Below, in pieces: positions 26,204 through 53,958 of a stretch of DNA of 64,000 bases. Location of the stretch: positions 1 to 64,000 of the forward strand of contig JAGHQL010000021.1 of the NCBI GenBank assembly GCA_020080175.1, written 5' to 3'. The DNA comes from Glutinoglossum americanum. Lineage: Eukaryota > Ascomycota > Geoglossomycetes > Geoglossales > Geoglossaceae. Each line of letters opens with the position of its first letter. Within the stretch, counting starts at the first letter, position 1. Under the pieces are notes generated by a model. The model did not search any database. It was not told where the DNA came from and was given only the letters and a program-made list of their open reading frames with translations. The translations under genes and the position numbers were made by a program.

Positions 26204-26447
26204 AAAAAAAAAGGTTCGGAGCGTCTCCTACATCCTCTTGTCGGCCTTCGGTGTCGAGATTTATTGCCCTGCACTTGTTAGAATGTTCTCTGCCGTGGTG
26301 TTTTGATGTTATGGCTTACGGATAACTTTGTACCTCCCCCTTTTTTATCCTTTCTTTGTTTGCGCTTATCGGGATTCGAACCGCGGACGTGCCGGACAAC
26401 TTGGAGTTTTTAAAGCACGAGGCCTACTTGCACCAAGTTGCCGGGTT
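26204..26447 (-). mobile_element. tRNA-headed SINE-like element, copy 1
   Basis: About 244 bp, read on the minus strand from 26447 to 26204. The head AACCCGGCAACTTGG resembles a Pol III A box, and about 55 nt later GGTTCGAATCCC matches the B-box consensus. A divergent middle follows, then a conserved 3' part (TTCTAACAAGTGCAGG, later GTAGGAGACGCTCCGAACC), ending in a T-run of nine, a natural Pol III terminator. A second copy with the same head, spacing, 3' part and T-run lies at 53721-53958 on the opposite strand. There is no acceptor-stem pairing, so it is not a functional tRNA gene. I see no clear target-site duplication. The family appears undescribed as far as I can tell, but I cannot search for it. 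Confidence 0.7.
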
Positions 26448-26810
26448 GACGGGGGGTGCGTTAACTCGGGTTATATGCCCTTCTGGGGGAGTGAATGTGT
26501 GGTGCGTGGATTTTTGCTAGAGGGACGGCACAACGCGTTGAATACTTATTCTTTTGCGCCATAAGATGTATCAGTAGTCTCGATATGGCGATCATATTCC
26601 CCTTTTGGATACGTTGGGGGCTTTGTTAGTTATTGCACATACTCGCATATACGTGAATTGTGTTGTTTGCATTGCACACCGTGAGCATGTTTATCGCGAA
26701 AATGGGTAAAGCTTCATCAGGTTCTTTACTATATGTAAGCGAACGGTATTAAGCACGCCCGACACCATAAACCGCTAAAGGATCTGAGGATCGAAAGCGC
26801 AAGCTAACTT
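26448..26810. other. Intergenic, 3' flank of the CMD gene
   Basis: AT-richer sequence with no gene recognised. Confidence 0.5.
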
Positions 26811-52547: not shown

Positions 52548-53720
52548 TTCAAGGAAAGGTGTTCGCGCGGTTCGGAGGAGTAGTAACGTTTCTGCGAAGA
52601 CTGAATTGGTATCTAGAAGCTGGGTAGGGTAACTAGCTCACGGTCATCCTAAGGACCGGCAAGCAGTTAATACGTACGGGTCCAGCAATCAGCTACGTTC
52701 TACATTGACCTACCCGAGCAAGGCGAGGATTCAAGTGCTCCGGAAATAAGTATTGGTATGAATCATCTCATGTACTTGCTGGGCGATTTACTTGGGAGAT
52801 AGGGTGCTTTTACTCTTAATTTTGCTAACGAGTACAAACGAATCCAGCAACTAGACATTTCACCCTCTGGAATCGCCTAAACAGCGTGAAAATCCTATAT
52901 GCTTTAGAGTCAATACTGCTATATTTGGCTCATGTACGAGGTACAGGAACGTTTTGCCTAAACCGAGTTGCGTGAGAGCAGCTATTGCCTATGTCAATCC
53001 ACCTAACCCTCCACACCTCATATTCCTATATCTAGTATGCGAGAGTACCCGCGAAGGCCATGCAACATGCAACGGGGTACTTGTCCTCAATCAACTAACC
53101 GCCAATCCGGAGTAACTAACCCATACGACTTCCCCTTTTTTTTTTACATCAACAGCCACTACGCCAGAAGACCACACATGTGCACACATCCCCCAAGTTC
53201 GACGGGAAAACGCCTCCAGCAGGCAATTGATGCAGCTGAAAGCCACCTAAAGTTCACTAAAAGTACCACCTAAGACCTCGAACTTGTGCTTGATTATATC
53301 TCCATATAGGAGGTCCCTGACAACCTTGCTGCTATCTGAGCGGGCGAATGGTGCCATGAGATATTTCGCTGCCGAGAGATTTCAGTTAAAGGAAACCGGA
53401 TCTCGGAAGAGATATGAACGGGATAAGTGTGGGTATTCTCTCTAGTAGAGCACAGTGACTACCCCCTTAGCACACATGAATCCCAACGCACCCTATTAGC
53501 CAGGATAGACATTGCCAAATAAAAGCCATCCGAAGGGGAATCCCATCACCACATAAGGCTGCAAATTAACCCCCATGGCGCGAGAACAAATCTTGATCAC
53601 GTTGCGCTGACAGCCCCTAAAGGTTACCTAGAACAGTTGTGCAGTACATAAGCACAACGCATTCACTCGCTCCTCCTTCAAAAACGGCGTCACATAAACA
53701 AAGCTAACACGCTTATCATT
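52548..53720. other. Intergenic
   Basis: About 1.2 kb of AT-richer sequence without recognised genes or repeats. Confidence 0.5.
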
Positions 53721-53958
53721 AACCCGGCAACTTGGCACAGGTAGGAGCTCGTGCTTTGAAAATGCCAAATTGTCCGGCACGTCCGCAGTTCGAATCCCGA
53801 CACACGCAAAGGAAGAATAATAGAAGGATAAAAGAACTTGTGAGTAATATCGAGCATCCTATATCAAAGGACTTTCTAACAAGCGCAGGACAAATGGGAT
53901 TGAATAGATCACGACAAACGCCAGCGAAGGACGTAGGAGACGCTCCGAACCTTTTTTT
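53721..53958 (+). mobile_element. tRNA-headed SINE-like element, copy 2
   Basis: About 238 bp. The head AACCCGGCAACTTGG is identical to copy 1 (26447-26204). The B box reads AGTTCGAATCCC (one change). The shared 3' part reads TTCTAACAAGCGCAGG and GTAGGAGACGCTCCGAACC, then a T-run of seven. The head is about 85% identical to copy 1, while the region between B box and 3' part has diverged more and contains small indels. No clear target-site duplication. Confidence 0.7.

Follow-up and report, generated by a model that had tools for sequence, protein, structure and literature searches.

A dispersed family of predicted small RNA genes with an upstream TATA-like box in Glutinoglossum americanum

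The 5S rRNA genes of filamentous fungi are dispersed, transcribed by RNA polymerase III (Pol III), preceded by a TATA-like element and subject to birth-and-death turnover. The family that we describe here from Glutinoglossum americanum resembles them in these respects, as we read it, but differs in that no 5S rRNA was found by Rfam. Rfam 15 gave no match at the gathering score across the 64,000-nucleotide stretch of DNA analysed (the window), and five loci of the family gave, at E values up to 10, two matches that lay far below the gathering score; a known RNA family was thus rejected as its identity.

The closest analogues in architecture are the rodent 4.5SI and 4.5SH RNA genes, which combine A and B boxes with a TATA-like box at −31/−24 (PMC10137851). 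Like these genes, the fungal family has internal boxes, a TATA-like box in the 5′ flank, a T-run, a small (here predicted) RNA and more than one gene copy; a further likeness is that the rodent RNAs are related to SINEs yet distinct from them. In contrast, 4.5SI is encoded by three genes and 4.5SH by tandem repeats, while the fungal copies are dispersed and strongly diverged. The two systems also differ in organism and sequence, and for the fungal family transcription is a prediction.

Among fungi, the AfuSINE2 elements of Aspergillus fumigatus, which are tRNA-related SINEs, resemble the family in that they are few and diverged, carry Pol III boxes and are of similar size (140–493 bp for AfuSINE2). 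They differ in that they are reported to have target-site duplications of 4–14 bp and identifiable tRNA relatives (PMC5063351), neither of which was seen here. In Magnaporthe, WEIRD is likewise a fungal non-coding RNA to which no function is assigned, and Mg-SINE is a fungal SINE, the 3′ end of which resembles that of the MGL LINE. WEIRD is 1113 nt long, is reported only as fusions to LINE copies and is often flanked by direct repeats, features that were not found in the Glutinoglossum family (PMC2104539).

A preliminary description of the window, made from its sequence, had reported two copies of a tRNA-derived SINE, at 26447–26204 on the minus strand (copy a) and at 53721–53958 on the plus strand (copy b). 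We verified both positions, which run from the head to the end of the T-run and which we take as the predicted Pol III-transcribed regions. The elements claimed for the two copies were also found. Both begin with the same 15-nt head, AACCCGGCAACTTGG, and share an exact 19-nt 3′ module, GTAGGAGACGCTCCGAACC (26213–26231, minus strand, and 53933–53951, plus strand), which includes a small hairpin, GGAG-ACG-CTCC, and takes variant forms in other copies. In the window, the module occurs exactly twice, and still twice when 3 mismatches are allowed, against 0.02 occurrences expected from shuffling. It is followed by nine T in copy a (26204–26212, minus strand) and seven T in copy b (53952–53958, plus strand), both putative Pol III terminators. 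Scored against the box consensus sequences, the A-box-like motifs, TGGTGCAAGTAG in copy a (26424–26435, minus strand) and TGGCACAGGTAG in copy b (53733–53744, plus strand), each agree at 7 of 8 positions, while the B-box-like motifs, GGTTCGAATCC in copy a (26372–26382, minus strand) and AGTTCGAATCC in copy b (53787–53797, plus strand), agree at 10 and 9 of 10 positions, respectively. Counted from the head, the A-box-like motif sits at +13 and the B-box-like motif at +66/+67 in copies a and b.

Homology between the window copies extends beyond these elements, which the preliminary description had not mentioned: it takes in ~60–70 bp upstream of the head and, beyond the T-run, a further ~35–40 bp, giving an alignment of 366 columns with 65.6% identity. 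At −30 to −24 from the head, both copies carry a TATA-like box with no mismatch to CAYATAA, namely CATATAA in copy a (26471–26477, minus strand; upstream-block match at 26453–26479) and CACATAA in copy b (53691–53697, plus strand). Farther out, ~80–120 bp before the heads, a motif resembling GTTGTGTTGCG is present at 26526–26536 (minus strand) and 53599–53609 (plus strand). It recurs ahead of several members of the largest subfamily and, weakly, in C13 and C149; it may be an extra promoter element or merely inherited.

The preliminary description had proposed a genome-wide search for further copies. Using DNA and pattern searches of the assembly (25.77 Mb in 317 contigs, with the window on contig C124), we identified at least 31 loci, bearing out the claim of a dispersed, multi-copy family. 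This number is a lower bound; the search scores the best candidates only. Besides the two window copies, it includes 29 loci, all on other contigs. A recognisable head is present in 25 of the 31 loci, and 23 of those 25 have an accepted tail. Copies without a head or tail also occur: the tail is missing from C40b and C111, and six loci are partial, with C222, C223, C264, C15, C35b and C106 left outside the head counts for want of a usable head. The tail-pattern search returned 11 matches, of which the six with 3 mismatches were discarded as chance (the reversed control gave 26 matches) and five were kept; C223, with ~37 nt of tail, is a weak member. Measured from the head up to the T-run, the copies are ~142 to 302 nt long.

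An ungapped comparison of the 25 headed copies, with AACCCGG as the anchor, gave identities of 0.24–0.28 at −240 to −49 and 0.31 at −48 to −37; identity then rose to 0.47–0.51 at −36 to −1 and reached 0.81 at 0 to 11, a rise that supports the predicted transcribed region of copy a. Anchoring at CCGAACC (23 copies) gave an identity of 0.82 at 0 to 11, and background past about +60. Upstream, the box keeps a near-fixed spacing. If the head is taken as the start, 20 of the 25 headed copies have a match to CAYATAA, exact or with a single mismatch, no more than 1 nt away from −30; in one of them, C42, another position matches equally well. In the other five, no convincing TATA-like box occupies −30, and these copies count against the gene-family reading. 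Three of them (C40a, C112 and C13) have 2 mismatches at −30, C3 has no site of this type near −30, and the nearest ones in C190b are at −41 to −47. Used alone as a genome query, the upstream block gave ten matches, all ten beside known copies, while the reversed control gave none; we therefore consider the block part of the unit. As the TATA-like box lies at the distance found in rodent 4.5SI/4.5SH, we infer that transcription would start at or next to AACCCGG.

Inside the unit, the 25 copies agree with the consensus at 5–8 of 8 A-box-like and 5–10 of 10 B-box-like positions, values that reflect the best placement in each copy with no null, and the T-run follows CGAACC in most of the 23 tails. 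The recurrence of these motifs across the family supports the earlier claim of a Pol III-type unit. In contrast, the claim that this unit ends at the head and the T-run was not supported. The preliminary description had stated that homology extending well beyond these points would refute its SINE reading, and homology crosses both. Some copies share it as far as about −245 on the upstream side and about +190 on the downstream side, and one pair as far as about +290. Among the flank matches, 1 of 21 upstream and 4 of 11 downstream are more distant or out of register, and the unit was not extended by these.

In most of the 25 headed copies, the ~55 nt at the 5′ end of the predicted RNA fold into a single long hairpin, which CCGG/CCGG usually closes. 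Its folding has a mean z of −2.2, with z below −1 in 18 of the 25; the window copies give −21.1 kcal/mol and z −2.82 (copy a; 26392–26444, minus strand) and −22.4 kcal/mol and z −2.43 (copy b; 53724–53777, plus strand). In an alignment built without structure, 85.8% of 331 cells are paired across 14 pairs, and sliding the partner as a control lowers pairing to 21–45%. The hairpin is also compensated, with two-sided changes in 6 pairs and 13 double-change cells. None of 500 shuffles, a control that ignores the kinship of the copies, equalled the observed pairing, double-change cells or covariation score; the two other measures of the five were matched by 32 and 67 of the 500. We count this, and the control's disregard of kinship, against the gene-family reading. 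Structure elsewhere was less evident, which likewise counts against that reading. Whole-RNA folding of the two window copies was not better than that of shuffles (z 0.71 and 0.25), RNAalifold predicted no common structure in the tail, and single copies folded only slightly more stably than simple shuffles on either side of the T-run (mean z −1.24 before it and −1.19 after it).

Sequence conservation is stronger in the head than in the rest of the predicted RNA. In seven pairwise comparisons of copies, the head is identical at 474 of 552 aligned positions (86%) and the body plus tail at 802 of 1093 (73%), a contrast with a pooled p of about 5e-9 that is significant alone at 0.05 in only 4 of the 7 pairs. 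In those pairs, the −36 to −1 block is identical at 176 of 251 bases (70%), not above body or tail, and the preceding 64 bp at 169 of 372 (45%). Three pairs from the second subfamily have heads that are 91–98% identical, compared with 41–60% in the upstream 64 bp. The conservation of the head fits a constraint on the 5′ part of the RNA, while that of the TATA-like block does not indicate any extra constraint. A constrained SINE source lineage, with its promoter and RNA structure kept, could leave a like trace, and head conservation is therefore not proof of a host function.

Phylogenetic analysis used 22 rows (C42, C222, C35b and the tail-less copies were excluded). A short subfamily comprising C3, C149 and C13 has a support of 100/100, and a second group of C61, C255, C285, C309, C14 and C190b, with C40a, has 96/95. 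The other copies lie outside these two supported groups; among them, C274a and C299 pair at lower support, and the window copies are sisters (99/95), from which we conclude that they probably arose via local inverted duplication. The median end branch is 0.23 and the closest of ten close pairs compared, C285/C309, is only 89% identical, so no very recent copies are seen.

Five contigs (C124, C274, C40, C35 and C190) carry two loci each, and in all five the partners are inverted, 26 to 111 kb apart; the chance of five out of five is 1 in 32, and the pairs diverge in 4 of 5. The tree joins the window copies as sisters but does not do so for C274a/C274b or C190/C190b. Two types of tail were observed, GTAGGAG..CTCCGAACC and AAAGGGnnCTnCCCnAGTA..CCGAACC; both are found in series in C274a, C299 and C40a, which suggests that tails are modular. 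The C125 and C40b loci have a further 92-bp repeat in common, at 82.6% identity and on opposite strands; it lies outside the C125 core and may be a separate dispersed repeat.

The proposed tRNA origin was not borne out. ARAGORN found 0 tRNAs in the window and in 10 further loci, and the head of the window copies forms a single long hairpin with no cloverleaf. Of the original tRNA-derived SINE reading, a dispersed, multi-copy, Pol III-type unit thus remains, without the tRNA derivation and the proposed ends. Signs of mobility were also sought. Among 22 copies, the longest word shared by the two flanks averaged 7.64 within copies and 7.66 across them, a weak test given that the copies are old; three other choices of the flank intervals compared gave own/cross values of 5.09/5.04, 3.23/2.86 and 6.09/6.02, again with no excess (cross pairs sampled, and the same old copies). 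Terminal inverted repeats scored 6.48 against 6.03 for shuffles and were well above them in 3 of 23 copies. No transposon family was detected at E values up to 0.01 among 20 neighbouring open reading frames, the longest per locus within about 1.5 kb at 20 of the 31 loci. At that threshold, 13 of these frames match some Pfam family (11 over its cut-off) and seven match none; the neighbours include mS41, a kinase domain protein, a cullin, a YchF-type GTPase C-terminus, a SYO1-like protein and a copper amine oxidase.

The genome contains 22 RVT_1 matches. One of these, on C267, has an open frame of 1172 codons, and retroelements are thus present. The tail motif was not found at the three reverse transcriptase loci examined, among which a LINE 3′ end may not be represented. 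Outside this genome, one family pattern gave 1 match among genome_contigs, in a Steroidobacter contig and taken as chance, and another search with one family pattern gave 0 among viral_contigs, neither collection being fungal. A literature search, the coverage of which mostly leaves out subscription journals, yielded no paper on the family among the matches listed.

We lean towards a multigene family whose dispersed members encode small non-coding RNAs and would be read by Pol III from their own upstream promoter. The principal alternative is an old SINE family, in which Pol III transcripts were retroposed by a LINE and have since diverged, with a true 5′ end perhaps upstream of the head. Such a family would have the dispersed copies, the A- and B-box-like motifs, the T-run and the conserved 3′ module, as well as several subfamilies with a variable centre. 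The reverse transcriptase matches make retroposition possible in principle, and diverged low-copy SINEs are described from A. fumigatus (PMC5063351). In close pairs, the −36 to −1 block is kept no better than body or tail, which further strengthens this alternative and weakens the gene-family reading. On the other hand, most headed copies have pre-start sequence in common at near-fixed spacing, the upstream block alone matches the genome only beside known copies, and homology runs past the T-run; flanking direct repeats are not in excess either, with the weakness of that test in old copies. On balance, the family looks more like small RNA genes with their own promoter than like ordinary SINEs, and we regard the SINE explanation as doubtful.

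Less probable still is a non-autonomous DNA element of about 350–680 bp that contains a Pol III unit by happenstance. Its appeal lies in the flank homology that part of the copies share well outside the unit, but the extent of this homology varies among subfamilies, and neither terminal inverted repeats beyond chance nor an excess of flanking duplications was detected. Moreover, conservation is highest at the head and terminator rather than at the outer ends. The idea that a local segmental duplication copied an ordinary intergenic stretch, and nothing more, agrees with the sister relationship of the window copies and their inverted arrangement, 27 kb apart. As a full account it was ruled out by the genome searches, with heads, boxes or tails carried by the 29 other loci, and we consider it very improbable. 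The evidence accordingly favours the gene family, followed by the old SINE family and then by the DNA element.

On the best reading of the sequences, the gene family would comprise at least three subfamilies with a Pol III type 2 promoter plus a TATA-like box and undergo birth-and-death turnover. In a typical intact copy, the TATA-like box at about −30 would direct initiation at or near AACCCGG, with A- and B-box-like motifs internal to the gene and the T-run acting as terminator. The predicted product is an RNA of ~140–300 nt, which would consist of a conserved 5′ hairpin holding the A box, a middle part that varies and is often rich in A, and a 3′ module with CGAACC-U(n) at its end. Copies may arise by DNA-level duplication of the unit, including its upstream promoter and downstream flank, and would then diverge and die. 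Any cellular role of the RNA would perhaps be exerted via a protein bound to the 5′ hairpin.

More tentatively, we propose that the family may represent an undescribed class of functional, dispersed Pol III non-coding RNAs of filamentous fungi, with at least three subfamilies and with a 5′ A-box hairpin and a CGAACC-U(n) tail joined by a variable linker, which would evolve by birth and death and not by retroposition. If so, a fungal genome of ordinary size would hold some thirty copies of one Pol III RNA gene family, which a repeat screen would class as a SINE and which Rfam-based annotation would overlook. The family would then extend to fungi the group of SINE-like RNAs with a retained upstream promoter, and the combination of a TATA-like box at −30 with a covarying 5′ hairpin would help in probing the function of such genes and provide a clear marker for them in other fungi.
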